Positions 2,594 through 32,171 of a stretch of 40,542 nucleotides of DNA are shown here, one piece after another. Numbering within the stretch: position 1 is the stretch's first letter; each line of letters starts with the position of its first letter. The notes below the pieces were generated by a model. That model did no database searches. It saw only the letters and a program-made list of their open reading frames with translations, and was not told where the DNA came from. The DNA lies in the NCBI GenBank assembly GCA_016342355.1, contig JAEINP010000043.1:1-40542 (forward strand), given 5' to 3'. The translations under genes and the position numbers were made by a program. The stretch is from Desulfatibacillum sp. Its GTDB lineage: Bacteria; Desulfobacterota; Desulfobacteria; Desulfobacterales; Desulfatibacillaceae.

Positions 2594-2620
2594 TCTTTCC
2601 AGCCCTAAGCCCTGGAAAGA
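2594..2620. repeat. 9-bp perfect inverted repeat between the TPR lipoprotein and pilin operons
   Basis: TCTTTCCAG, a 9-base loop, then CTGGAAAGA. It starts just after the stop of the TPR lipoprotein gene (minus strand) and could fold in its 3' UTR, but it is not followed by a U tract. It is also about 120 bp upstream of the candidate sigma-54 promoter of fimT, a usual distance for an enhancer-binding site. Either role is possible. Confidence 0.5.
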
Positions 2621-2642
2621 CGCCGGGGATGGATAATTTTAT

Positions 2643-3449
2643 CTACCAGGTGGTTTGGAGTGTGCGAATTTTGGCAGTGGCCTTGGCGCAAACCTCTGAA
2701 TCAGGGGTCAGGACGCACACCTTATCCCAGGCCTGCTGAGCCTTGGAGCGGTGACCGGACCTGAGATAGGCTTCTCCCAGTTCAAAATAGGCTTCGGCGA
2801 AATTTGGCGCTAAAAGCACAGCTTTTTCAAGAGCGTACAAGGCTTTTTGAGAGTTTCCATCTTCCAGGTACACTTTGCCAAGACCGCGCCATCCCTGCGC
2901 ATAGCCCGGTGACTGGTCCACGGACATGAGATAGTATTCTCTGGCTTTATCCAGATCTCCCTTGCTGAAATACGCCCAGCCCAGGTTGGCGGCGGGTTTC
3001 CAGGGCGTGGGATAGGTGAGGTCGGCCAGGAGGTCCTGGAATACGGTGATGGCATTATCCCACTGCTCCAACTCCAGATAGGCGCAGCCCAGGTTGTTTT
3101 TGGAGCTGAGATATCCCGGGTCAAGTTTTACAGCCTGATTAAAATGCTCCAGAGCTTCCTGGGGACGGCCCAAGGTCAAGAGGACCAGTCCCAAATAGTC
3201 CTGGACTTTCACGTTTTTCGGGTCCAGTTGCTCGGCCTTGAGAAATTCGCGCAAGGCCGCCCTTGATTGACCCTCGTTCATGAGGACCACACCCAGTTCC
3301 CGGGTGGCTTCCACCTGTTTTCCCACGTTAGGAGAGGATTTGGAGGCGCAACCCTGGATGGAAACTATAATCAAAAAGCCTAAAAAGGCGATAGCCAGCG
3401 GGGCTTTGGCGGCTGTCAGCAAATTAAGGCGCCCACGGTTTGACTTCAT
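2643..3449 (-). CDS. TPR-repeat lipoprotein, PilF/PilW-like pilotin candidate
   Basis: About 268 residues. The start chosen is the ATG at 3449 because GGAGGG lies directly upstream; an upstream in-frame TTG at 3464 would swallow that site. The N-terminus has a basic region, a hydrophobic segment (APLAIAFLGFLIIVSIQ) and a lipobox ending GC-A-S, so it is a predicted outer-membrane lipoprotein. The rest is about six tetratricopeptide repeats (for example NLGCAYLELEQWDNAITVF, GWAYFSKGDLDKAREYYL). The architecture and location next to minor-pilin genes match the TPR lipoproteins that assist secretin assembly in type IV pili. It may be translated with the preceding LysM gene (gap 16 bp). General TPR lipoprotein is secure; a pilotin role is inferred. 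Confidence 0.8.
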   Translation of the reverse strand: MKSNRGRLNLLTAAKAPLAIAFLGFLIIVSIQGCASKSSPNVGKQVEATRELGVVLMNEGQSRAALREFLKAEQLDPKNVKVQDYLGLVLLTLGRPQEALEHFNQAVKLDPGYLSSKNNLGCAYLELEQWDNAITVFQDLLADLTYPTPWKPAANLGWAYFSKGDLDKAREYYLMSVDQSPGYAQGWRGLGKVYLEDGNSQKALYALEKAVLLAPNFAEAYFELGEAYLRSGHRSKAQQAWDKVCVLTPDSEVCAKATAKIRTLQTTW

Positions 3450-5281
3450 AAATCTTCCCTCCAATTCATTGTTTTACCAGAATGACGCTAATCCCTTTAT
3501 CTAACAGGAAAGAGATAATCATATCATGGAGAGGCTCTTCTGTCACCAGAACAGGCTGATACAGGCCTTCCGGCAGCAGCAAGCCGGGAATTCTCAGGGA
3601 GGGGCAGGAGTCTCTGGTACGGGGGGCTGCCAGAAATTCCGGGTCCCACTGATAATCCAGGCCCAGCTTTCGGGCCAGGTTCCGGCTCCCGTTCAGTGCG
3701 TCCTCCATGGTTGAAATTCGCACCAATTCAAAGCCCATTGTTTTCAGGGTATCGTGAGCTTGTCCGCCCATGGTTCCGAAATCCAGCAGCATCTCCTTGC
3801 CATCAGGTGTACGCAAGCGGTTGACCACGGTTTCCACCTGAAAACCTGCATAGGGAAAGCTGAACGGCATGTTTTCGGAATAGTCCGCCCCCAGCGCCCT
3901 CATGAGTGCGGAAACCATCAGGCGGGGCGTGGGATGATCCAGAAGCACCCGGTTGGCCTTGGGCGTTGACGGGTTGTCTGCCTGCTCCTCCCGGACCGGC
4001 TCGGGCAAGTCTCCGGGAAAGATGTCTGAAATCCTGATGGCGTTATCGGCAAAATAGCGGACCAGGTCGGGGTGACAGGTTTCTTTGGGGTCTTCGATCC
4101 AGGTGATGGCCACATACTGGTATTGTCCTTGGCCGGGCAGCACCAGGTGGCTATGGACCGAGACTTCCACGTTACCGTCAGCAAAGGAAAGGTCAACTTT
4201 ATCCGGCCTAAGGCCAGCCTTTGCCATGATTTTACCCAGGAGCATGTCCGGGGAGGCCTGTGGGGGCAATTCAAACGCTTCCACGGATCCCCACATCTTA
4301 TTTACGGCCAATTTCTCCTCTTTAGTCAGGCTGGTTTGCTCCCCAAGGAGCATAAATCTGCCGTCTGGCATCCGCAGGACCGGATGCTTGGAGAGATCCA
4401 ATTTCAGGTCTTCCTTTCCGACCCGGGGGAAATAGTAGATCCCCTTGTTCATGACCATGCCGCCCATGGCGCTGATGGCGTCCTCAAGGGGGTTGAGGGC
4501 ATTTTCCGGCCTGACATTGACGAGAGGGGGTTGGACGGGCATCGGCGGCGGACTGAGGGCGACCTCTTCCAGGGTATTCTCTTCCGGCCCGGGAACAGGC
4601 GAGTTAAAACCTTTCTCGGAAAGGGGTTCCGCACTGGTTGTCATATCAGGTTCACGGGCGCCGCCTGTTTCGGATATGGGCAGGGTGATCTGTTGCCCTG
4701 CATAGATGCGATGAACGTTCTCGATATTGGGGTTAAGCTCCTTGAACCTTGCCATGGCTTCCATATAGGATGGGGTGCCTATGCCCCCAAAACGCGGGGA
4801 AATAATTCCGGACAGGGTGTCACCTCGAGCGACCGTATATTTTTCGTAGTGCTCCACCAGAACCTCGTCCTGGACCGGGGGCAGGTATTCCGGTTCCTGG
4901 GAGGTGACCAAAGGCAGAGTGACGGATCCTGTGCCTTGCTCGGGCAGGGTGCCCGGGGGCATTTTTTTCAGGGGGATCAGAAGGAACTGGCCGGGAAAAA
5001 TGCGGTTTACATCCTTGACCCTGGGATTGATCGCCTTGAAAATACTTAGAAATTCGGGAAAGTCATCCACGGAAATCTGCCCCCGCAGGCGCAGTAACTC
5101 TATAATGTGGTCGCCTTTTTGCACCACATAGGCGTCACAAAGGATATCCTCCCCAAAAGCCTGGTGGATTTCATAATCCTTATATAGGACTGTAGACCAT
5201 CCCGCGCCAGGGAACACCACGCATACCATCGCCAGGGCCAGCACGCACAGGCCGACCCCCTTGGCGATGATGCGTTTGTTT

Positions 5282-8070
<2,789 letters not shown>

Positions 8071-8271: not shown

Positions 8272-8859
8272 ATGGAAGATGTTAGGATCAAGAAGCGCGA
8301 AGTCCGTACCCAAGTCCTTAATATCCGAGAGGCAATGGATTCGGTTGAGTACGGCAAAAAAAGCGCCGCTATTGAGGAAAGACTTCTGGACTTTGCCAAT
8401 TTCCAGGAATCCAATACCCTTTTAATGTACAGCCCCTATAGAAAGGAACCGAATTCCAAGGGAGCTATCCTGGAGAGTTTCAGTATGGGGAAGGTGGTTC
8501 TTCTTCCCGTTGTCCACCCCAAGCGCCAGGAGTTTATTACATTCAAGGTGGAGAACCTGGAGGGCGATATGCGGGAAGGCTCGGGCGGAAAAATAGAGCC
8601 GGATCCTAAAATCTGCAAGCCTGTGCCCCTTCGTTTTATAGAACTGGCCATTATTCCCGGAATCGCCTTTGATGAAAGGGGGGGCCGCCTTGGATACGGA
8701 GAAGGCTATTACGATAAGCTGATCCCCCTGCTTCCCGCCACCACCCGCAAGGTGGCAGTCGCCTTTGAGTGCCAATTGCTGAACCAGGTGCCCATGGAAG
8801 CCCATGACAAATATGTGGATATCATCATTACGGAAGATAGGGTCATCTATAAGATATGA
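8272..8859 (+). CDS. 5-formyltetrahydrofolate cyclo-ligase
   Basis: 195 residues. The enzyme (MTHFS, YgfA/Fau family) converts 5-formyl-THF to 5,10-methenyl-THF using ATP, returning stored folate to the one-carbon pool. The signature RGGRLGYGEGYYDKL near residue 135 is the conserved RGxRLGxGxGYYD motif, and the N-terminal Lys/Arg-rich KKREVR fits the ATP-binding start. I chose the ATG at 8272 because GGAG sits 8 nt upstream; the open frame continues 39 codons further up but without homology or ribosome-binding site. The next gene overlaps by 4 bp. Confidence 0.9.
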   Translation: MEDVRIKKREVRTQVLNIREAMDSVEYGKKSAAIEERLLDFANFQESNTLLMYSPYRKEPNSKGAILESFSMGKVVLLPVVHPKRQEFITFKVENLEGDMREGSGGKIEPDPKICKPVPLRFIELAIIPGIAFDERGGRLGYGEGYYDKLIPLLPATTRKVAVAFECQLLNQVPMEAHDKYVDIIITEDRVIYKI

Positions 8860-9296
8860 GTGAAACAGAATTCACCCTTACGGGCTGGAAAGCCATAGTC
8901 GCTGTTATCATTGCAGTCGCTGTGGGCGGATATAGCCTTGTTATGCGAAACGCCACCCTGGACACCCAGGCCAGGGATGTGATCAGCACCTGGATCGCCG
9001 CAGAGTATGCCAGCAAGGCCCTTACCAAGTGGGAAGGGGCGGACTACGCCCAAAATCCCCAACTGGCGGAACAAAGCGCCGAAGAAATCCTGGCCGCCAC
9101 CCGGGTGACCATTCCTTCCATCAAAGCCAAGGGCAGTAAACGGGAACCCATCGTGAGGGTGAAAATCCTTGTGGACGGCCAGCCCCCTGCCGACGGCAAG
9201 GGCACCCGCTATTACAAAATGAAATTCTCCCCCATGACCGGTTGGACCATGGGCCACAAGGTCACGGCTTTTTCTTATTACACCAAGTTATTTTAG
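8856..9296 (+). CDS. Small membrane-anchored protein of unknown function
   Basis: 146 residues. One N-terminal membrane helix (about residues 11-29, WKAIVAVIIAVAVGGYSLV), then a soluble domain likely on the periplasmic side. No catalytic motif recognised. The start ATG overlaps the cyclo-ligase stop by 4 bp (ATGA), so the two are translationally coupled. Codon usage and base composition match neighbouring genes. It is not a family I can name. Confidence 0.7.
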   Translation: MSETEFTLTGWKAIVAVIIAVAVGGYSLVMRNATLDTQARDVISTWIAAEYASKALTKWEGADYAQNPQLAEQSAEEILAATRVTIPSIKAKGSKREPIVRVKILVDGQPPADGKGTRYYKMKFSPMTGWTMGHKVTAFSYYTKLF

Positions 9297-9615
9297 AATG
9301 GCACATTTTCCCCGGACATCACTTTTAGCAGCTTTTTGAGCTGAATCAATTTGTTACAATAATCGCACAACAGAACTTCCCAATAGATTTGCAGTGCTGT
9401 TCTCAGGGCTTTTCTTCGCGCTTTTACCATTATGTGTGGAAGGGGAGTTGCCATGAAGAAATATAACGAACTTTGCCTCGAAGATATTATGTCTGCCATC
9501 GATTTTTTGGAATAACCGACTTCATAAACAGAACCAATGCTGAATAACGTGCGGGTCAGGTATGTTCGGAACTCCGCGGCAATGAGTGATAAAGACCCAA
9601 CTAGTAAGATGGGCG
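9297..9615. other. 319-bp gap between convergent genes; no confident gene
   Basis: AT-richer than its surroundings. I find no tRNA, clear terminator or conserved gene. The only notable item is a 20-codon plus-strand ORF at 9453-9515 with a good ribosome-binding site (separate entry). A minus-strand open frame starting GTG at 9619 lacks any recognisable domain. Confidence 0.5.
9453..9515 (+). CDS. Possible 20-residue small ORF
   Basis: ATG at 9453 with GGGGAG six nt upstream encodes MKKYNELCLEDIMSAIDFLE and then TAA. The acidic, helix-like composition and well-placed ribosome-binding site look gene-like, but the length is too short to judge. It may be the beginning of a decayed gene. Low confidence. 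Confidence 0.2.
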   Translation: MKKYNELCLEDIMSAIDFLE

Positions 9616-11298
9616 TCACACTTCCAGGACCATGGGGACAATGACGGGCTTGCGGCGGATGACGTAGTTGAAAAAGCGGCGGAGGGTTTGCTGGATGGCG
9701 GCTTCAATCATGGGGATTCGTTCCGGGCCGGAAAGGTCCAGTTGTTCCACGGCGTCCATGATCACGCATTGGGCGTCCTGGAGCAGGTGGCCTTTTTCGT
9801 CCTCAAACACAAAGCCCCGGGAGATGAGTTCCGGGCCGTAAATGACCACGCCAGTATCCTGGTCCAGGATCATGGTAGCCACCACCATCCCGTGTTCGGA
9901 CAAGGCCCGGCGGTCCTTGAGGACCTTGCGGCCCACGTCGCCCACACCCTTGCCGTCCACGAATGTACGGCCAGTATCCACGGAGTCTCCGATCCAGCCC
10001 ACCTCGTCGACAAAATTGATCACATTACCGTTTTGGGCCAGAAGGATGCGCTTTTTCGGGATTCCCACTTTTTCGGCCAACCGGGCATGGTGCAAAAGGT
10101 GCCGGTATTCCCCGTGAATGGGGATAAAATGGCGCGGCCGGGTCAGGTGGATCATGAGCTTGAGTTCTTCGCGGAAAGCATGGCCTGAAACATGGATGGC
10201 TGAAATTTTTTCGTAGATCACCTCTGCGCCCCGGCGGTAGAGATTGTTGATAATGCCTGTTATGGCCTTTTCGTTCCCCGGGATAAACTTGGAGGACAGG
10301 ATAACCGTGTCCCCTTTTTTGATTTTGATTTGCTTGTGGGCCCCTGCTGCAATACGGGCCAGGGCGCTCATGGGTTCCCCCTGGCTTCCCGTGGTGACCA
10401 TGAGGACTTCGTTGTCATCGTAGTCCGAGACCTGGGACACGTCGATCTGCATACCCTTGGGGATTTTAATGTAGCCCAGTTCCTGGGCGATACGGATGCT
10501 CACTTCTATGCTGCGGCCGTTAAAGACGATTTTTTTGTCTGTATTGGCGGCAATATTCACAATCTGGGCGAGCCTGGGCACGTTGGAGGCAAACAAGGCC
10601 ACAATCACGCGGCCGGAACTGTCCGCCACCGCTTTTTCCAGAGTGCCCCCGATTTCGCTTTCGGAAAGGGTATAACCTTCTTTTTCCGCATTGGTGGAGT
10701 CGGAGAGAAGAACCAGGACCCCTTCCTCCCCCAACTGGGCCAGACGGCTGACGTCCGTGGCTTCGTCATCAAGCTGGCCGTGGGTGATTTTAAAGTCACC
10801 GGTATGGATGACCAGACCTGCGGGAGTTCGGATGGCCAGGCTTACGCCGTCCACCACGCTATGGGAGGCTCGGATAAACTCGATTTCAAAGGGACCTACG
10901 GTAAAGTGCTCGCGGGGTTTGATTTCATGGAGCCGCACCTTGTTGAGCAAATCGCGTTCTTCCAGCTTGTGGCTGACCAGCGCCATGGTAAAGGGCGTTG
11001 CGTAGACGGGGGCAGGAACATCCTTGATCACAAAGGGCAGCGCGCCTATATGGTCCTCGTGGCAATGGGTGAGGACAATGGCGGCAACGCGGTCCTTGTT
11101 TTCCCGCAGGTATTCGTAGTCCGGGATGACGATATCCACGCCCAGCATGTAATCCTCGGGGAACATGAGGCCGCTGTCCACCACCAGGATGGTTCCGTCA
11201 TACTCGAAGACCGTCATATTAAGCCCGATCTCGCCCAGCCCGCCCAGGGGGATTATCCGCAGGGCTTTGGATTGTTCGGGGGATTCCTGGGGCTCCAT
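9616..11298 (-). CDS. rnj: Ribonuclease J (metallo-beta-lactamase/beta-CASP RNase)
   Basis: About 560 residues, the usual RNase J length. It processes and degrades RNA in the cytoplasm with endo- and 5'-3' exonuclease activity. Visible: IIPLGGLGEIG at the start, the zinc motif HCHEDH (residues 78-83), downstream metal ligands (HTGDFKI), and beta-CASP signatures VSGHAFREELKLMI and HFIPIHGEYRHL. The start chosen is the ATG at 11298 (weak AGAG upstream); the open frame goes back to 11379, but that would overlap the upstream gene by 41 bp and exceed the family's usual N-terminus. An ATG at 11316 is the main alternative. Confidence 0.93.
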   Translation of the reverse strand: MEPQESPEQSKALRIIPLGGLGEIGLNMTVFEYDGTILVVDSGLMFPEDYMLGVDIVIPDYEYLRENKDRVAAIVLTHCHEDHIGALPFVIKDVPAPVYATPFTMALVSHKLEERDLLNKVRLHEIKPREHFTVGPFEIEFIRASHSVVDGVSLAIRTPAGLVIHTGDFKITHGQLDDEATDVSRLAQLGEEGVLVLLSDSTNAEKEGYTLSESEIGGTLEKAVADSSGRVIVALFASNVPRLAQIVNIAANTDKKIVFNGRSIEVSIRIAQELGYIKIPKGMQIDVSQVSDYDDNEVLMVTTGSQGEPMSALARIAAGAHKQIKIKKGDTVILSSKFIPGNEKAITGIINNLYRRGAEVIYEKISAIHVSGHAFREELKLMIHLTRPRHFIPIHGEYRHLLHHARLAEKVGIPKKRILLAQNGNVINFVDEVGWIGDSVDTGRTFVDGKGVGDVGRKVLKDRRALSEHGMVVATMILDQDTGVVIYGPELISRGFVFEDEKGHLLQDAQCVIMDAVEQLDLSGPERIPMIEAAIQQTLRRFFNYVIRRKPVIVPMVLEV

Positions 11299-25050: not shown

Positions 25051-26454
25051 TTACCATCCCAGCTTAAGGTAATCCTCCATGGAGTTGGCTGCAGCGCGTC
25101 CGGCGCCCATCGCCTGGATGACCGTGGCCATGCCGGTGACTATGTCGCCGCCAGCCCAAACACCCTTCATGGTGGTCTTGCCCGTGGCGGGGTCCGCCAC
25201 GATGTAGCCCCGTTTGTTCAACTCCAGGGCCGGGGTGGTGGAGGTGAGCAGGGGGTTTGCGCCCGCGCCCACGGAGATGACCGCCAGGTCGCAATCCAAA
25301 TCGAACTCCGAGCCTTCAATGGGTACGGGACGCCGCCTGCCGGACGCATCGGGTTCGCCCAGTTCCATTTTCTTGCAATGCATGGTGGTGAGCCTGCCTT
25401 CATCGGTGCCGGAGAATCCCAGGGGAGCGGTGAGGAGAAACAACTCAATACCCTCTTCTTCCGCATGATGGATTTCCTCGCCCCTGGCAGGCATTTCCTC
25501 TCGGGAGCGGCGGTAAACGATCCTGACAGTTTCCGCGCCCAGGCGCATGGCTGTGCGGGCTGAATCCATGGCCACGTTGCCGGCGCCAATGACCGTTACG
25601 TTCTTGCCGACCACAATGGGAGTATCGTATTCAGGGAAGAGATAGGCCTTCATGAGGTTGGAGCGGGTGAGGTATTCATTGGCGGAGTACACGCCAATGA
25701 GGTTTTCGCCCGGGATGCCTAGGAAGTAGGGCAAGCCAGCGCCCACCGCCACATAAATGGCGTCAAAGCCCTCTTCAAACAATTCTTCCAGAGAAACAAT
25801 AGCGCCCACAACCTGGTTGCACTGGAATTTCACTCCCAGGCGCTCCAGGTAATGGATTTCCGCAAACAAGATTTCCTTGGGCAGACGGAATTCGGGAATG
25901 CCGTACAGCAGCACGCCGCCGGGCTTATGGAAGGCCTCAAACACGGTGACGTCATGTCCGTTGAGGATAAGATCGCCAGCCACGGTGAGTCCGGAAGGAC
26001 CGGAGCCGACCACGGCGACTTTCTTGCCGGTGGCGGGCTTGGTTTCAGGAATCTTGACTTCCCCTTCCTTGCGCTCCCAGTCGGCCAGGAACCTTTCCAG
26101 GCGGCCAATGGCCACTGGATCGCCCTTTTTGCCCACGATGCATTTGGCTTCGCATTGGACTTCCTGGGGGCAAACCCGGCCGCATACTGCGGGCAGAGCG
26201 TTGGTTTCCTTGATTTTGGCGATACCGGCGGCGAAATTGCCTGCGGCGATTTCCTTGATAAATCCGGGAATATCAATACCAACCGGGCAGCCCTGCCGAC
26301 ATCCGGGATTTTTGCACTGGATGCACCGGGAAGCCTCCAGCATTGCGGTTTCCGGTGTGTAGCCAAAGGGTACTTCCTCGAAATTTCTCGCCCGAACTTT
26401 TGGGTCCTGCTCGGGCATTGGCTGCCTGGGGACCTTTTCTTTTTTTTCTGCCAT
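25051..26454 (-). CDS. nfnB: NfnB/SudA-type FAD oxidoreductase (GltD-like), large subunit
   Basis: 467 residues, cytoplasmic. N-terminal dicluster domain with C-x2-C-x4-C-x3-CP (CIQCKNPGCRQGCP) and CGRVCPQEVQCEAKC, two [4Fe-4S] clusters as in GltD/NfnB. FAD Rossmann motif VVGSGPSG near residue 150 and a second nucleotide motif IGAGNVAMD near 290; C-terminal GGDIVTGMATVIQAMG FAD loop. Together with the adjacent NfnA it makes the NADH-dependent reduced ferredoxin:NADP oxidoreductase / sulfide dehydrogenase type enzyme, known to do flavin-based electron bifurcation. Lies 65 bp after nfnA; GAGAGG precedes its ATG. Confidence 0.88.
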   Translation of the reverse strand: MAEKKEKVPRQPMPEQDPKVRARNFEEVPFGYTPETAMLEASRCIQCKNPGCRQGCPVGIDIPGFIKEIAAGNFAAGIAKIKETNALPAVCGRVCPQEVQCEAKCIVGKKGDPVAIGRLERFLADWERKEGEVKIPETKPATGKKVAVVGSGPSGLTVAGDLILNGHDVTVFEAFHKPGGVLLYGIPEFRLPKEILFAEIHYLERLGVKFQCNQVVGAIVSLEELFEEGFDAIYVAVGAGLPYFLGIPGENLIGVYSANEYLTRSNLMKAYLFPEYDTPIVVGKNVTVIGAGNVAMDSARTAMRLGAETVRIVYRRSREEMPARGEEIHHAEEEGIELFLLTAPLGFSGTDEGRLTTMHCKKMELGEPDASGRRRPVPIEGSEFDLDCDLAVISVGAGANPLLTSTTPALELNKRGYIVADPATGKTTMKGVWAGGDIVTGMATVIQAMGAGRAAANSMEDYLKLGW

Positions 26455-26519: not shown

Positions 26520-27359
26520 TTAGCCCTTGCAGGAACAACTGTTCCGGAACCGGTCCATGGATTCTTTCTCCTCCGCCATATAACCTGCCAGGCGTTGGGA
26601 AAGTCCGTCAAAATCCACCTGATGGCCGTCGAATTCCGGGCCGTCCACGCAGGCGAACTTGGTTTCGCCGCCCACGGATACGCGGCAGCAGCCGCACATG
26701 CCGGTGCCGTCCACCATGATGGCGTTGAGGCTTACCAAAGTGGGGACATTGTATTGCTTGGTGACGGAACAGACGAACTTCATCATGGGCACAGGGCCGA
26801 TTCCCACCACCAAGTCCACTTTTTCGCTTTCCAGTCTTTTCTTCAAAAGGTCTGTGCCGAAACCATGGTATCCGCAGGAGCCGTCGTCGGTGCAGACTTC
26901 CAGGATGTCGGAGGCTTGGGTCATTTCCTTTTCCATGATCAGCAGTTCTTTGTTACGCGCTCCGATAATGCCCACGACCTTGTTTCCCGCCTGTTTGAAC
27001 CCGCGGGTGATAGGGTGCAGCACCGCCACGCCTGTTCCACCGCCGATGCAAACCACTGTGCCGATATTGTCTACATGGGTGGGTTTGCCAAGGGGGCCGG
27101 CAATGTCCAGGAGGGCGTCGCCCACCTGGAGGGTTTTCATGAGGGCTGTGGTTTTGCCCACTACCTGATAAATAAGGGTAATGGTGCCCTTGGCAGGGTC
27201 TGTATTCGCCATGGTCAGGGGAATTCTCTCCCCTGTTTCATTGACGCGCAAAATCACAAACTGGCCGGGTTTGGCCTTTTTTGCGATTTGCGGGGCTTCG
27301 ATCACATTTTCGACCACAGTTCCCTGGGCCAACTCCCGTCTTGATAAAATTTTAAACAT
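26520..27359 (-). CDS. nfnA: NfnA/SudB-type FAD-[2Fe-2S]-NAD(P) subunit
   Basis: 279 residues. N-terminal FAD beta-barrel with RIPLTMAN, NAD-binding motif CIGGGTGVAVLHP, then the PyrK/NfnA-type [2Fe-2S] cysteines: DDGSCGYHG and GTGMCGCCRVSVGG with a later ACVDGPEF. In NfnAB this subunit carries FAD, a [2Fe-2S] cluster and the NADH site. CCGGAGG precedes the ATG. First gene of a two-gene operon with a candidate sigma-54 promoter 33-48 bp upstream; placed where rnfB would be expected after rnfA. Confidence 0.9.
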   Translation of the reverse strand: MFKILSRRELAQGTVVENVIEAPQIAKKAKPGQFVILRVNETGERIPLTMANTDPAKGTITLIYQVVGKTTALMKTLQVGDALLDIAGPLGKPTHVDNIGTVVCIGGGTGVAVLHPITRGFKQAGNKVVGIIGARNKELLIMEKEMTQASDILEVCTDDGSCGYHGFGTDLLKKRLESEKVDLVVGIGPVPMMKFVCSVTKQYNVPTLVSLNAIMVDGTGMCGCCRVSVGGETKFACVDGPEFDGHQVDFDGLSQRLAGYMAEEKESMDRFRNSCSCKG

Positions 27360-27391
27360 CGAAAACCTCCGGGTAGGGGGTTCACAGGTCT

Positions 27392-27407
27392 TGCCCGAGT
27401 TGTGCCA
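27392..27407 (-). promoter_or_regulatory. Candidate sigma-54 promoter of nfnAB
   Basis: Minus-strand TGGCACAACTCGGGCA: the -24 hexamer TGGCAC is perfect and GC sits at the required distance. The -12 element is GGGCA instead of TTGCA. Predicted start about 27381, then CCGGAGG and the ATG at 27359, which is ideal spacing. Confidence 0.5.
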
Positions 27408-27507
27408 GCAACCTTAGTGAAACAAAAAGCCGCGTTTTGAAACAAAAAAACAGGGCCGGGGGCGAAAAACCGTGGAACCGAAAGTTATATTAGCGCCAGT
27501 TGAAACA

Positions 27508-27523
27508 TTCTCCTGGCGGAGAA
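27508..27523. repeat. Palindrome upstream of nfnAB, possible enhancer site
   Basis: TTCTCC-TGGC-GGAGAA is a perfect 6+4+6 inverted repeat about 100 bp upstream of the candidate sigma-54 promoter, a usual distance for an activator site. It can also fold in rnfA read-through RNA. Confidence 0.45.
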
Positions 27524-27531
27524 CTAAAACA

Positions 27532-27561
27532 GCCCACACCGCCAATTTTGGCAGAGTGGGC
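27532..27561 (-). terminator. Hairpin after rnfA, possible weak terminator
   Basis: Outer stem GCCCAC/GTGGGC and inner stem GCCAA/TTGGC separated by a 3x3 internal loop, followed on the minus strand by TGTTTTAG. U tract is poor. It could end the rnf transcript or, given the palindrome just beyond, be part of the nfnAB control region. Confidence 0.35.
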
Positions 27562-27617
27562 ATGTCAAAGAACCTTATTAAAGCAACAAGGTCAAGCAAA
27601 AAATTTAGTCTGACAAA

Positions 27618-28193
27618 CTATACCATTCCCTTGAATCCCATGAATGCCAGCGCCAGTATGCCCGCGGTAATGAGACCAATGGAAGTGTCCTGCAGGGGCT
27701 TGGGCACCCTCGCCAGGATGATGCGTTCCCGCACACCGGCGAACAGGATCAGCGCCAAGCCAAAGCCGGCTGCGTAAGAGAAGGATGAAACCAGCGCTTC
27801 GAGAAAAGAATACTCTTCCTTGATATTGATGATACAAACACCGAAGACCGCGCAGTTGGTGGTGATGAGGGGAAGGAAGATTCCCAGTCCGGCGTAAAGG
27901 CCGGGGATGCTTTTTTTCAGGAACATTTCCACGAACTGCACCAAAGAGGCGATGACCAGAATAAAGGCGATGGTTTGCAGGTACTCCAGTTTAAAGGGAA
28001 TCAGGATGTACGTGTTAACCAGCCAGGTGATTCCGCCAGCCATCACCAGCACGAAGATTACGGCCATGGCCATACCCACGGCGGTTTCTATCTTTTTGGA
28101 AGTACCCAAAAAGGGACAGTTGCCCAGGAACTGGGCCAGCAGAATATTATTTACAAAAATACAACTAATAACGAGAACTATGTAATGTTCCAT
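27618..28193 (-). CDS. rnfA: Rnf complex membrane subunit RnfA
   Basis: 191 residues, six membrane helices. Conserved Cys26 in FLGNCPFLG and Cys114 in TTNCAVFGVC, the two RnfA ligands of the intramembrane [2Fe-2S] cluster shared with RnfE. GGGAGAT precedes the ATG. It is the last rnf gene here; no rnfB follows, although rnfB usually follows rnfA in Rnf operons. Ion-translocating core subunit with inverted topology relative to RnfE. Confidence 0.93.
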   Translation of the reverse strand: MEHYIVLVISCIFVNNILLAQFLGNCPFLGTSKKIETAVGMAMAVIFVLVMAGGITWLVNTYILIPFKLEYLQTIAFILVIASLVQFVEMFLKKSIPGLYAGLGIFLPLITTNCAVFGVCIINIKEEYSFLEALVSSFSYAAGFGLALILFAGVRERIILARVPKPLQDTSIGLITAGILALAFMGFKGMV

Positions 28194-28240
28194 TATGATA
28201 TCTCCCGCGGCCCATGCCGCACCGGCTTAGGGTTCCCGCT

Positions 28241-28852
28241 TTATTTGCTGGGCACCAGGTTCATGAGGCAAAGCATCAGTCCCAGGCCGATGAAAGCGCC
28301 CGGCGCCTGAACCATAAAGGTGAACGGGGTGTACCAGTCCGCTGTGAGCAAGGTGAGCTTGGCTCCGAATGGAATTGTAAAGCACCCGGTTCCCAGGACT
28401 TCCCTCACTGCGCCGAGGGCCGCCAGGGACATGGTGAAACCAATGCCAATTCCCAAGCCATCCGCCAAGCTGGAGGTGATTCCGTTTTTGTAGGCAAAAG
28501 CCTCGGCCCGGCCCAGCACTATACAGTTAACAACGATCAGTGGTATAAACAGACCCAACTTAAGAAAGAGCGGATAGGCATAGGCCTGCATGACAAGTTC
28601 CACCAGGGTGACAAAGGTGGCGATGACCACGATAAAGCAGGCGATGCGCACCTTGGGCGGGATGACATTCCTAAGCATGGAAACAAGCAGGTTGGCGCAA
28701 ACCAGCACAAAGGTGGTTGCCAGCCCCATTCCGACGCCGTTTTCCACCGTGGTGGTCACGCCAAGCACGGGGCACAGGCCCAGCACCAGCCTAAACGGAG
28801 GAATTTCTTTCCACAGCCCTTTTGTGAATTCCTGGGCAAGTGTTTTAGCCAT
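28241..28852 (-). CDS. rnfE: Rnf complex membrane subunit RnfE
   Basis: 203 residues, six membrane helices. Cys27 in LGLCPVLGVT and Cys110 in VVNCIVLGRAEAF are the RnfE pair for the intramembrane [2Fe-2S] cluster, so with RnfA the four-Cys site is complete. Start at ATG 28852 with GGGAG upstream; the open frame extends into rnfG but that part is a shadow. 47 bp before rnfA. Confidence 0.93.
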   Translation of the reverse strand: MAKTLAQEFTKGLWKEIPPFRLVLGLCPVLGVTTTVENGVGMGLATTFVLVCANLLVSMLRNVIPPKVRIACFIVVIATFVTLVELVMQAYAYPLFLKLGLFIPLIVVNCIVLGRAEAFAYKNGITSSLADGLGIGIGFTMSLAALGAVREVLGTGCFTIPFGAKLTLLTADWYTPFTFMVQAPGAFIGLGLMLCLMNLVPSK

Positions 28853-28865
28853 GATATTAATCTCC

Positions 28866-29465
28866 CTATCCTGCAAAGGCCCCGACTTTTTCAAGTATCT
28901 GAGGCTTGAGATTTTCGTATATTTTGCCGGCGGAAGTGACCGCCGCAACAACGGCCTTGGATGTGACGGTAGCGCCTGAAATGGCGTCTATGTCGCCTCC
29001 ATCTGCGCTGACGGAAAAGGGCTGCAACAAGGGTAGCCCCGTAAACTGAGCAGCCAGTTCCGGTTCATCCTTGGCTCTGGAGCCAATACCCGGGGTTTCG
29101 GCCGAGGTTGTCACACCCACGCCGATCATCTCGTCGGTATCCAGGTTGACGGCAACCATCACCCCCAAAGGTCCGCCAAAACCCACTGCCGAGGCTTCGA
29201 AAGCCACTGCGGAAGGCTTGCCGTCATACACTCCGATAAAAAAGTTGGTTTCCGTATCGCCATCCACGATCTTAAAGCGGTCATTCAACACGGTGTCCAG
29301 GTTGTCCGCCTCTGCGAAAATAGACTGGATCGTGGGGCCTTGGACAAACTTCAATTTCTGGCTTTCAATCTGGGGGGCCGTGGCGTCCCGCACAACGGCG
29401 AGCAATCCCCCGGAAAAAGCAGCCAGCAACGTGATGACCACTATCATCTTAACCATTTCACGCAT
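28866..29465 (-). CDS. rnfG: Rnf complex flavoprotein RnfG
   Basis: 199 residues. One N-terminal membrane helix, then a periplasmic FMN-binding domain. VGFGGPLGVMVAVN and the covalent-flavin motif DAISGATVTS are intact; Thr166 of SGAT is the expected phosphoester-linked FMN site. Overlaps the end of rnfD by 8 bp. With the upstream cytochrome c3 this gives a periplasmic electron entry or exit for the complex. Confidence 0.93.
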   Translation of the reverse strand: MREMVKMIVVITLLAAFSGGLLAVVRDATAPQIESQKLKFVQGPTIQSIFAEADNLDTVLNDRFKIVDGDTETNFFIGVYDGKPSAVAFEASAVGFGGPLGVMVAVNLDTDEMIGVGVTTSAETPGIGSRAKDEPELAAQFTGLPLLQPFSVSADGGDIDAISGATVTSKAVVAAVTSAGKIYENLKPQILEKVGAFAG

Positions 29466-30447
29466 TTTCCACCACCTTTCCCAGGGCCCCGGGGCGGATC
29501 ATGTCCAGCAGGGGGTTGAGTATGTTCATCAACAGAATGGCATAAACCACACCGTCGGCGTAAGCGCCGATATTTCTCATGAGCATGGTGAGTACGCCAG
29601 CCCCTGCTCCAAAAATCAGCATGGGAATCAAGTTGACGGGGGTCGAGGAATCTTCGCCCATGAGGAAGAAAGCACCTATGAGAGTGAAGCCCGTAAGCAG
29701 GTGAAAAGAAGGATCAGCGTATGCGCCTTCAGGCCCGAATGCCTTAAAAAGATAGGCTGTGACAAAAATACCAGCCACGAAGGACAGACAGATTTCCCAC
29801 CGGATGTATCCCCTGATAATGAGGTACAGGCCGCCGATGATGAGACCCAGGCCGAATATGGCGCCAATGCCGCCAGTTTGTTGACCCATGAGAAGGGCGG
29901 ATGCGCTGAAGTTGGCGGCGGCTTCGGCGCCTGCCCCATTGGCCACGGCAGTCTTGACTGCGGTGAGGGGGTAGGCCATGTCAAAGCCGAAGGTGTAGCC
30001 GCCAGCCAGGGCCGCGTCAAAGTCGAACAGGCCCTTCCACGAAAGATTAGCCACCGCGTACCCGACCAGAACCGGGTTGAAGGGATTGCCGCCCAGGCCG
30101 CCGAAGATCATTTTACCTATGAGAATAGCCACAAAGGTGGTTGTGATCACCGCCCACCAGGGAAGCGTGGGGGGCATGAGCATGGCCAGGATCAGGCCGG
30201 TCAGGGCTGCGGTTCCATCCCCAATGGAGGAGGGCCGTTTCATGAGCAGGTCCAGGATCAGTTCCCAGGCCATGGCGCTGGCCATGGCGATGCACACCAC
30301 ACCCAAGGCCAGGGCGCCGTATTGGTGAATCCCGATAGCCACTGCGGGCAAGGCCGCCAACATCATGTTGTAGCTTTTTCGGGATACCCGGTTCCCATTG
30401 TGCCAATGGGGGGCGTGGGACACCACGAATTTTTTCTTAGTTTCCAT
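29458..30447 (-). CDS. rnfD: Rnf complex membrane subunit RnfD, lacking the flavin-binding threonine
   Basis: 329 residues with about ten membrane helices. Conserved blocks: SYNMMLAALPAV, FGGLGGNPFNPVLVGYAV and GAFFLMGEDSSTP, YADGVVYAILLMNI at the C-terminus. In other RnfD proteins a motif like (S/T)xATPL carries covalent FMN on Thr; here the aligned stretch is GFDMAYPLTAVKT, so Tyr159 (codon at 29971-29973) replaces that Thr. Starts directly after the rnfC stop. RnfD identity is secure; loss of covalent FMN is inferred from the alignment by eye. Confidence 0.9.
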   Translation of the reverse strand: METKKKFVVSHAPHWHNGNRVSRKSYNMMLAALPAVAIGIHQYGALALGVVCIAMASAMAWELILDLLMKRPSSIGDGTAALTGLILAMLMPPTLPWWAVITTTFVAILIGKMIFGGLGGNPFNPVLVGYAVANLSWKGLFDFDAALAGGYTFGFDMAYPLTAVKTAVANGAGAEAAANFSASALLMGQQTGGIGAIFGLGLIIGGLYLIIRGYIRWEICLSFVAGIFVTAYLFKAFGPEGAYADPSFHLLTGFTLIGAFFLMGEDSSTPVNLIPMLIFGAGAGVLTMLMRNIGAYADGVVYAILLMNILNPLLDMIRPGALGKVVENA

Positions 30448-31716
30448 CTATTCCGCCTCCGGGGCCATCCGGCTCAGTTCATGCTTGGCCAGCCCAATGT
30501 ACTGATAAATGGGTATGCGGGCAGGGCAGACGTAGCTGCACAGGCCGCAATCCACGCAGGAGAGCAGGTCGAACCGCTCTGCACCTTCCACGTAGAGTTT
30601 GTTTTCAAGAAAACGCACCAGCACGTTCACAGGGATTTTGGCGGGACAAACCTGGACGCATTCCCCGCAGTTGATGCAGGCGGCGTCTTCGATTTCCGAC
30701 AGGTTATCGGCGTCCTGGACCATGATGGCGTCTGTGTCGGGCTGGACAGGCAAATCAACGGAGTAGGTAGCCACGCCGGTCATGGGGCCGCCCAGGATCA
30801 GACGATCCCCGGAGTTCACCATGATGCTTTTGAGGGCCAGCACATCCTTGATGGGGGTGCCTATCCGGACCTTGACATTGACAGCCTCTTCATCCTTGTT
30901 GATGAGAGTCAGTATCTTGTCGGTGCAAGCCTTGCCCGTCGTGCAGGATTCTCCCAAAGCCGCCACAGCTTCGGCGGAGACGCAAAGCACGCCCATGTCT
31001 ATAAGGTCTTTTCCCGCGGGAACGGTGATCCCCAGGAGTTTATGCATGACGAGCTTGGGAGTGGCGTTAGGATAGACCGTGTCCACTTCCTTGACTTCAC
31101 AATCGCAGTTCTTGACGGCATCGACCAGATAGGATGGGGCCGCCAGGATGACCTTGCTTACCTTGGTGATCCTTTTGAGAGCTTTCACCCCCTTGGCCAA
31201 CTCCTTGGTGCGGGATTTCACCACATGCTGGACAGCAGTGACCAAAAGGTCCTGGTCCATGCCCAGGATCAGGATGGTGTTTATGTTCACCTCCGGATCA
31301 AGCACGGGTTTGAGGCACAGAGCCCCGGGTCCATTTTGAAAATTGGCAGCGACCGTAGCCAGGTCCGGATTTTCATCCAGGGCGTCAACCCATTCCTTTT
31401 GGGCGTCGGCTTCCACCATTATGGCCGTGAAGTTGTTGGCGTTAGCGTCCGTATAGGGCTCCATAGCCGTCACCTTTCCGGCGAGCGTGGAAACTGCGTA
31501 ATCATCGCTTGCTGCGAAAGGGGCCAGCCTCTGTCCTGCCTTGACGATATCACCCACCTTGAGGGTCAGCAGTTCTTTGCTCTCCAAAGCTCCAGGCACA
31601 AAAAACGTGGCGGTCCTGGAGGCGGGAACCTCTTCCAGCGGGAGTGATGACAGGTCAGGGGGCGCGGAATAACTCAGCCTCGGTTTGACCAGTCCAAAAA
31701 ACGATCTTCGTTTCAT
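30448..31716 (-). CDS. rnfC: RnfC-like Fe-S subunit, NADH/FMN motif absent
   Basis: 422 residues, peripheral cytoplasmic subunit. A barrel-sandwich N-domain (LKVGDIVKAGQRLAPFA), a Rossmann-like middle and SLBB region (VRIGTPIKDVL, ILGGPMTGVATYSVDLPV), then two [4Fe-4S] sites CINCGECVQVCP and CVDCGLCSYVCP. Two things typical of RnfC are missing: the N-terminal GGIHP motif and the glycine-rich GxGGAGFPTxxKL with the following NxAECEPY; the aligned stretches read NGPGALCLK and ILGMDQDLLVT. It may therefore not bind NADH. AAGGG precedes the ATG. Follows the cytochrome c3 gene by 83 bp. Confidence 0.88.
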   Translation of the reverse strand: MKRRSFFGLVKPRLSYSAPPDLSSLPLEEVPASRTATFFVPGALESKELLTLKVGDIVKAGQRLAPFAASDDYAVSTLAGKVTAMEPYTDANANNFTAIMVEADAQKEWVDALDENPDLATVAANFQNGPGALCLKPVLDPEVNINTILILGMDQDLLVTAVQHVVKSRTKELAKGVKALKRITKVSKVILAAPSYLVDAVKNCDCEVKEVDTVYPNATPKLVMHKLLGITVPAGKDLIDMGVLCVSAEAVAALGESCTTGKACTDKILTLINKDEEAVNVKVRIGTPIKDVLALKSIMVNSGDRLILGGPMTGVATYSVDLPVQPDTDAIMVQDADNLSEIEDAACINCGECVQVCPAKIPVNVLVRFLENKLYVEGAERFDLLSCVDCGLCSYVCPARIPIYQYIGLAKHELSRMAPEAE

Positions 31717-31799
31717 CGGTGTTACCCTTTTTGGTTTTTACAGAATATGCAAATGCGGGGCTCATAACAATGGAATCGGCATCATGCCGCTGCCGTCAC

Positions 31800-32171
31800 C
31801 TAATTACCGTGACAATCAGTGCATTCCAGTTCCAGGCCCATGTCTTCGTGACAGCCTATGCATTGCGCGTGAAAAGAATCCTTGCGTGACGGCACTTCGC
31901 TATCCTTGGAAGGCTTGGCCAAATGGCACGCACCGCATTTTTGCATCTCGTCGGTTTCGTCCTCGGCCGTATGATGGCAATCCAGACAGGCCAAATCGAA
32001 ATCCGCATGATGTTCCTGATGTTCGAACATGATCTTGCCTGCGCCGCCGCCAAAATCCAACAGCACCCGAATGGGCTCTCCCGGAGGAAAAGCTGCATAG
32101 CACACGGCCCCGACGAGAAATAGCGCAGCCATCAGGCCCAAGGCTAGAAGGCGTTCCTTGTTTTTGTTCAT
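31800..32171 (-). CDS. Tetrahaem cytochrome c3-like protein
   Basis: 123 residues. Signal peptide (LLALGLMAALFLVGAVCYA) and four CxxCH haem sites: CLDCH, CGACH, CIGCH, CTDCH, with extra His ligands (HQEHH), as in class III cytochromes c3. Periplasmic electron carrier typical of sulfate reducers. It is the first gene of the rnf operon; multihaem cytochrome genes next to rnf are known in Desulfovibrio relatives and Methanosarcina. AAGGA is upstream of the ATG. Likely electron partner of RnfG. Confidence 0.9.
   Translation of the reverse strand: MNKNKERLLALGLMAALFLVGAVCYAAFPPGEPIRVLLDFGGGAGKIMFEHQEHHADFDLACLDCHHTAEDETDEMQKCGACHLAKPSKDSEVPSRKDSFHAQCIGCHEDMGLELECTDCHGN

Follow-up and report, generated by a model that had tools for sequence, protein, structure and literature searches.

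A rearranged Tol2-type rnf cluster in Desulfatibacillum sp. and a candidate RnfB-flavoprotein fusion encoded outside it

Inspection of a 40,542-nucleotide stretch from Desulfatibacillum sp. (GenBank assembly GCA_016342355.1, contig JAEINP010000043.1, positions 1 to 40,542; the window) indicated a gene cluster for an Rnf complex that contains no rnfB. The cluster belongs, in rearranged form, to an Rnf variant already described, the Tol2-type Rnf, and the loss of the flavin anchor of its RnfD subunit is class-wide. We believe, with a probability of about 0.6, that this is a Tol2-type Rnf whose rnfB lies outside the operon in the window's family, that a fusion protein encoded on another contig, F1, is its RnfB, and that the complex would act as an ion pump between NADPH (reduced nicotinamide adenine dinucleotide phosphate) and cytochrome c3. 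The cluster is read as a rearranged Tol2-type Rnf because F1 fills the RnfB slot in the operons of relatives and lies elsewhere in the window family.

All cluster genes are on the minus strand, in the order c3-rnfC-rnfD-rnfG-rnfE-rnfA, a 258-bp gap (27360-27617) and nfnA-nfnB. This order, described in a first-pass annotation of the window, is borne out by the open reading frames (ORFs), and each gene is backed by Pfam and NCBIfam models. The first gene (31800-32171) encodes a tetraheme class III cytochrome c, c3-like, with four CxxCH motifs (PF02085, 4.2e-9). It is followed by a variant rnfC (30448-31716), which keeps eight iron-sulfur (Fe-S) cysteines and has lost the motifs for flavin mononucleotide (FMN) and NADH, and by a variant rnfD (29458-30447; TIGR01946 above cut-off), in which the Thr that carries covalent FMN is replaced by Tyr159 in the alignment to Acetobacterium woodii RnfD. 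In rnfG (28866-29465; NF045876 RnfG_DVU2794 above cut-off) the flavin-binding Thr of the SGAT motif is intact, rnfE (28241-28864; TIGR01948 above cut-off) encodes Cys31 and Cys114, and rnfA (27618-28193; TIGR01943 above cut-off) encodes Cys26 and Cys114. The annotation had also stated that rnfB is absent from the cluster and that no frame in the gap carries its Cys motifs, and this stands: the sole minus-strand ORF of at least 60 residues wholly inside the gap has 61 residues and one Cys. Consensus scans of the gap gave no promoter-like site and listed no minus-strand terminator-like site.

The RnfC of the window scores below the cut-offs of TIGR01945 (194 versus 246 bits), RnfC_N and Complex1_51K, and above that of NQRA_2nd. 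Its predicted AlphaFold structure, with a predicted local distance difference test (pLDDT) value of 89.3, has A. woodii RnfC as its best match and keeps the RnfC fold, with a template modelling score of 0.78 to A. woodii RnfC and at most 0.69 to NqrA. The models for NqrA, NqrB, NqrD and NqrE all score below their cut-offs in the NCBIfam scan of the window, and no NqrF was found among the ten window genes scanned, no genome-wide NqrF search having been made. All eight RnfC cluster cysteines are kept in 59 of 59 aligned rows, which sets the complex apart from Na+-NQR, whose NqrA is without Fe-S clusters.

The changes at the cofactor sites extend far beyond the window. We sampled 116 related genomes, 102 of which matched the window RnfC at E <= 1e-10, and classed them by hand: 92 have the variant RnfC and 69 have F1 (at least 54% identity). 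For comparison we took 17 canonical Rnf loci found in other members of the order. The motif counts exclude any row whose RnfC, RnfD, RnfG, RnfE, RnfA or F1 ORF is truncated; L102, a locus of a different Rnf class, is still in the sets for the conserved cysteines, the RnfG Thr and the F1 motifs and was left out of the variant-versus-canonical counts for RnfC and RnfD. The RnfC motifs GxGGAxFP and ECEPYLT, which we take to bind FMN and NADH, are intact in the 17 canonical loci, whereas the window and 58 variant rows have substitutions there (F to G in 58/58, the second E to D in 58/58). At the RnfD position that carries the covalent FMN in A. woodii (T156; passages of PMC11889175), Thr occurs in 17/17 canonical and 0/59 variant rows, the latter having Tyr (46 rows, the window among them), Phe (5) or other residues (8). 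The class-wide loss of this flavin-anchoring Thr, deduced from alignment, is apparently new.

In the same variant class the flavin-binding Thr of RnfG is kept in 58/58 rows and the Cys pairs of RnfA and RnfE in 52/52 and 55/55, in keeping with the first-pass view that these sites are intact. One ApbE flavin transferase is encoded in the window genome, on contig C43; it is presumably what RnfG would need to get its FMN. Of 59 other variant loci, 57 have a c3-like gene ahead of rnfC, and in both misses the contig ends inside rnfC; among the canonical loci it occurs in 0/17 of the stretches fetched, and a free-standing RnfB is found in 15, the other two reaching a contig end. With the RnfC motifs and the RnfD Thr gone and c3 at the head of the cluster, the annotation's suggestion that the complex does not use the standard ferredoxin-NADH chemistry is supported. 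Four loci belonging to other types of Rnf (L102, L175, L178, L179) are mixed: none retains the RnfC motifs, and L178 alone has the RnfD Thr. L175 (G024:C64) belongs to a further Rnf type in which c3-rnfCDGEA is followed by a fusion in a 733-residue frame, 49% identical to F1, and its RnfC and RnfD are more divergent still.

The window genome (G000) is a draft of 5.26 Mb in 142 contigs, listed as 100% complete. Here the RnfB model matches only two proteins above its cut-off, on contigs C23 and C142. Both are fusions, in which an RnfB part (an N-terminal hydrophobic stretch, the FeS domain and two Fe-S cluster motifs) is followed by a GltD-like flavoprotein, and no free-standing RnfB encoded with other Rnf subunits was found in the genome. 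The first-pass annotation had suggested that RnfB was lost or replaced; instead it is part of a fusion with an NADPH-type flavoprotein, and members of the window family encode this fusion away from the cluster. The genome search that the annotation called for thus turned up rnfB on other contigs and no second, canonical rnf operon: both matches to the Rnf-Nqr membrane subunit family PF02508 lie in the window. Four further matches to the FeS domain PF04060 (C24, C79, C20, C34) were rejected as RnfB by eye from their translations: a 446-residue protein resembles a corrinoid Fe-S protein subunit, a 271-residue protein has a regulator-like C-terminus, and those of 269 and 179 residues are without the RnfB double-cluster part.

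F1 has 695 residues (G000:C23:3628-5715), of which the N-terminal ~190 are RnfB and the rest is a GltD/NfnABC-type flavoprotein. Solved RnfB chains align with residues 4-191 (7zc6_B, 8e-43; 9eri_B, 1e-37), and for residues ~180-683 the best scores come from the GltD modules of NfnABC/Stn (454, 430 and 410 bits), two-subunit NfnB proteins scoring 331 bits or less. The GltD-type module for flavin adenine dinucleotide (FAD) and NADP(H) in NfnABC/Stn (9bov, 9n5u, 8oh5) is thus the closest solved relative of the C-terminal part, although in F1 the module is joined to RnfB and not to larger subunits. Foldseek searches with the F1 model agree with these matches, as a rough fold check at a middling pLDDT of 65.3. 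The RnfB cysteines, the FAD glycines and the NADP-type YRR motif of F1 are kept in 35/35 F1 rows, as are the cysteines of the GltD clusters, except C243 (34/35). The ratio of nonsynonymous to synonymous differences (pN/pS), computed only for G000 against G001 and G006, is low for F1 (0.17 and 0.31, respectively); RnfE gave 0.16 and 0.19, with synonymous sites near saturation, and RnfC 0.34 against G001. No common motif upstream of rnf and F1 was obvious by eye, no formal search having been made. The second fusion, F2 (675 residues; G000:C142:108755-110779, or 8756-10780 in locus L149), carries a full RnfB part. It is widespread among relatives (L110-L139), and in some genomes, that of the window included, a molybdopterin gene (formate-dehydrogenase-like) is close by.

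The position of F1 in the relatives connects it with the variant Rnf. Both the variant RnfC and F1 are present in 67 of the 116 genomes, RnfC only in 25, F1 only in two and neither in 22 (Fisher p 8e-9, uncorrected for relatedness and of little weight). Of the 67 with both genes, 53 have F1 on the strand of rnfC and at most 6 kb from it: 49 in the RnfB slot downstream, four upstream. The first-pass annotation had held that close relatives with rnfB at this site would point to a simple gene relocation, and that is where F1 stands in these 49 genomes. The remaining 14 genomes encode it on a contig other than that of rnfC, all seven window-family genomes with both genes among them; in several of the seven from outside the family F1 is at a contig end. 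F1 is present in 7 of 8 window-family genomes with rnfC, the copies of G002 and G007 being cut by the contig end, and it adjoins orn and traB in four of the seven (G000, G001, G004, G007); contig ends lie close to F1 in G002 and G003. ORFs under 70 residues were left out of the gene-order comparison. A quick tree of RnfC and RnfD joins the six long-enough family rows in one clade, with 100 in the Shimodaira-Hasegawa-like approximate likelihood ratio test; its neighbour, at 89, is G077, whose F1 lies in the operon. A tree of F1 places the seven family rows on one side of a branch, a grouping itself without support. By parsimony, the simplest history would be that F1 left the operon in the ancestor of the window family. 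A wider sample of the phylum, compared by sequence match, showed hits to F1 (E <= 1e-150) in 38 of its 297 genomes; in 23 of these the match spans most of F1 at 51% identity or more. Several F1 loci (for example G033:C17, G039:C198, G040:C66 and G047:C324) have one in-frame TGA in the matched stretch, which may be the gene end, an error or selenocysteine.

The RnfB slot is occupied in the window by nfnA (26520-27359; FAD/NAD-binding, [2Fe-2S]; NF004862, 409 bits) and nfnB (25051-26454; GltD-like, NADP(H)-binding; TIGR01316, 577 bits). An NfnA of the DHODB Fe-S type adjoining a GltD-like NfnB identifies the pair as an NfnAB transhydrogenase. The annotation had supposed that another cytoplasmic protein, possibly NfnAB, takes the place of RnfB; NfnAB would then dock on the membrane part of Rnf and supply the electrons. 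The two genes come next after rnfA in five of the six family genomes assembled there (G000, G001, G005, G006, G007), the contigs of G003 and G004 ending too early, and a role for NfnAB is possible because G005 has nfnAB at the site and no F1. The window genome, moreover, has one NfnAB of the usual size: its nfnB is the only NfnB-sized match (E <= 1e-60), four others lying in frames of 731-1416 residues. Against this, F1 is present in nearly all family genomes with rnfC, NfnB aligns over its full length with two-subunit NfnB structures, and the RnfB-type domain PF04060 was not found by Pfam in NfnA or NfnB. The conservation that the annotation asked about was also seen only within the family: G002 is a family member without the rnfA-nfnAB adjacency, and of the 52 variant loci from other genomes, many of them short stretches, none showed nfnAB. 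A replacement of RnfB by NfnAB in the window genome is unlikely, and we would give it very little credit. An assembly artefact, by which rnfB was dropped from the contig of a draft genome in 142 pieces, has a negligible chance and was rejected, as independent genomes already refute it: G001 has the identical 258-bp gap followed by nfnAB (gap length was obtained for two of the five genomes), and G005, G006 and G007 have the same order.

These data suggest a possible working of the complex. In A. woodii, as described in passages of PMC11889175, electrons pass from RnfB through the RnfA/E cluster, the FMN of RnfG, two RnfD flavins and RnfC to NAD. The RnfA/E, RnfG, RnfB and RnfC Fe-S parts of this canonical Rnf (9eri) are common to the window Rnf, whereas the FMN/NADH site of RnfC and the FMN-Thr of RnfD are missing in the latter and RnfB is fused. 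In the rearranged Tol2-type Rnf, F1 is predicted to assemble with the other subunits, and electrons would be exchanged between NADPH, its probable substrate, and the FAD and Fe-S clusters of F1. They would then run along the RnfB clusters and through the Fe-S centre of RnfA/E, the putative site of ion pumping, to the FMN on RnfG and on to the periplasmic tetraheme c3 as the likely partner. With the FMN sites of both RnfD and RnfC gone, the canonical return leg (RnfD FMN, RnfC Fe-S, FMN, NAD) would be interrupted, leaving a redox-driven ion pump that works between NADPH and cytochrome c3 and is probably reversible. An Rnf of Methanosarcina has likewise been modelled with RnfG and a cytochrome c as its end point (passages of PMC4023990).

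F1 might also serve as a three-way junction, with ferredoxin on its RnfB part, NADP(H) on its GltD part and c3 as the third partner, and with bifurcation possible at its FAD. The kept Fe-S ligands of RnfB fit such a role, as does the origin of the closest solved flavoprotein modules in electron-bifurcating transhydrogenases. Those modules, however, sit in larger complexes (NfnABC, StnABC) with other subunits outside F1, and ferredoxin binding by F1 is hypothetical; we consider the junction conceivable and on the whole doubtful.

Several observations weigh against the NADPH/c3 pump with F1 as RnfB, a proposal drawn from genes and sequence. In Desulfovibrio alaskensis, whose Rnf may be of another class, mutants in dhcA, the cytochrome gene cotranscribed with rnf, have almost no phenotype according to the parts of PMC4215793 and PMC4841214 that treat them. 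The F1 neighbours in G006 (18 kb seen) are unlike those in G000, G001, G004 and G007, and because they differ the history of F1 may include more than one move. Changes at the RnfD riboflavin site are incomplete: position N123 is N in 43, H in 11 and S in 5 of 59 variant rows and D249 is E in 52, D in 6 and Y in 1, so some electron flow to RnfC is possible. It could then be that RnfD riboflavin and the RnfC clusters return electrons to another cytoplasmic acceptor, with c3 as a side branch, a reading that the invariant RnfC cluster cysteines favour. In the A. woodii structure, however, the RnfD FMN joins RnfG to the riboflavin (passages of PMC11889175), and its anchoring Thr is absent from every variant row; we find this return route rather improbable.

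A further point on that side is that F2 is a second candidate RnfB. Its RnfB part is complete, and G005 has F2 only. Among the 30 best-matching F2 loci, 23 have rseC next downstream, and rseC also follows a GltD-less RnfB in two other Rnf loci (L102, L179). On the other hand, it is F1 and not F2 that occupies the rnf operon in relatives, and the NADP signature of F2 is lost, while its cysteines are kept in 33 or 34 of 34 rows. That F2 rather than F1 serves the window operon therefore seems to us quite improbable.

F1 is also missing from 25 of the 92 variant-RnfC genomes, including the well-assembled G005 and G069, which likewise counts against the proposal. Fifteen of the 25 were searched with the RnfB model. 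Three genomes, G031, G034 and G093, carry a 271-313-residue RnfB frame on the opposite strand, upstream of the cluster; G005 (97% complete, 40 contigs) has the nfnAB cluster and F2; G069 (99% complete, with a variant rnf cluster) gave no RnfB match over the cut-off; and G053 has F2 plus an F1 remnant in the slot (L096 11138-11637) from which the middle, residues ~88-602, is gone by decay or misassembly. The other nine have F2, five of them with other RnfB-type frames as well. RnfB supply varies among relatives and F1 is not universal, because the F1-less genomes searched carry free-standing RnfB, F2 or no match. At L103 (G034; 2617-6183) a frame of 1189 residues after rnfA, by eye a pyruvate:ferredoxin oxidoreductase, accompanies the divergent free-standing RnfB, and its place suggests another electron-input partner.

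We tentatively extend the proposal for the window to the class, at somewhat short of even odds: the variant Rnf may be a one-way transmembrane redox pump between NADPH and c3, in either direction, which discarded the return flavins and had its NAD(P)H chemistry moved from RnfC to RnfB by fusion. The electron-input subunit would be exchangeable between lineages, which have F1 (67 of 92 variant genomes), a free-standing RnfB (G031, G034, G093) or, in G005, F2 or NfnAB.

The closest described system is the Tol2-type Rnf (Rnf2) of Desulfobacula toluolica and Desulfococcus multivorans. Passages of PMC5109826 describe an RnfB of ~700 residues with NAD-binding sites, an RnfC without the NADH and ligand-binding domains and a cytochrome in the cluster, and report that five or six subunits were detected by proteomics. 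The window genome shares the large RnfB with an NAD(P) module (F1), the RnfC without an NADH site and the clustered cytochrome, and the match to the literature suggests that its owner is a sulfate reducer of the Desulfobacteraceae kind. It differs in that the large rnfB is outside the cluster, on contig C23, with nfnAB in its slot, whereas nfnAB of D. multivorans is far from its rnf; loss of the RnfD FMN-Thr is not mentioned in those passages. In Desulfotignum phosphitoxidans, compared by description, rnfCDGEA occurs with a putative cytochrome c, and no rnfB is named or explained in the relevant part of PMC4046663. The rnf operons of Desulfovibrionaceae, also compared by description, end in a FAD-dependent oxidoreductase and were read as having lost rnfB (as excerpted from PMC11434368); here, by contrast, the oxidoreductase carries RnfB at its N-terminus. 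For the Rnf of Methanosarcina acetivorans, RnfG was proposed to donate to a multiheme cytochrome c encoded with rnf, but the donor there is ferredoxin and the passages concerned mention no GltD fusion (PMC4023990). The relocated form of RnfB, nfnAB at its site and the RnfD Thr loss were not found in the parts of the open-access literature searched.

Rnf is a major energy-conserving complex, and in the standard model its electrons go across the membrane and back to NAD. The variant class, common in the order of the window (92 of the 116 relatives sampled), has lost flavins of the return leg, kept the pumping core and carries a cytochrome and an NADPH-type module. Because the loss of the RnfD flavin anchor is class-wide, the one-way model can be tested, and the class offers a natural test of where pumping occurs and of how such bacteria join NADPH to the periplasmic cytochrome pool. 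It is also a warning for annotations, in which 'rnfB lost' may mean 'rnfB fused and renamed'.

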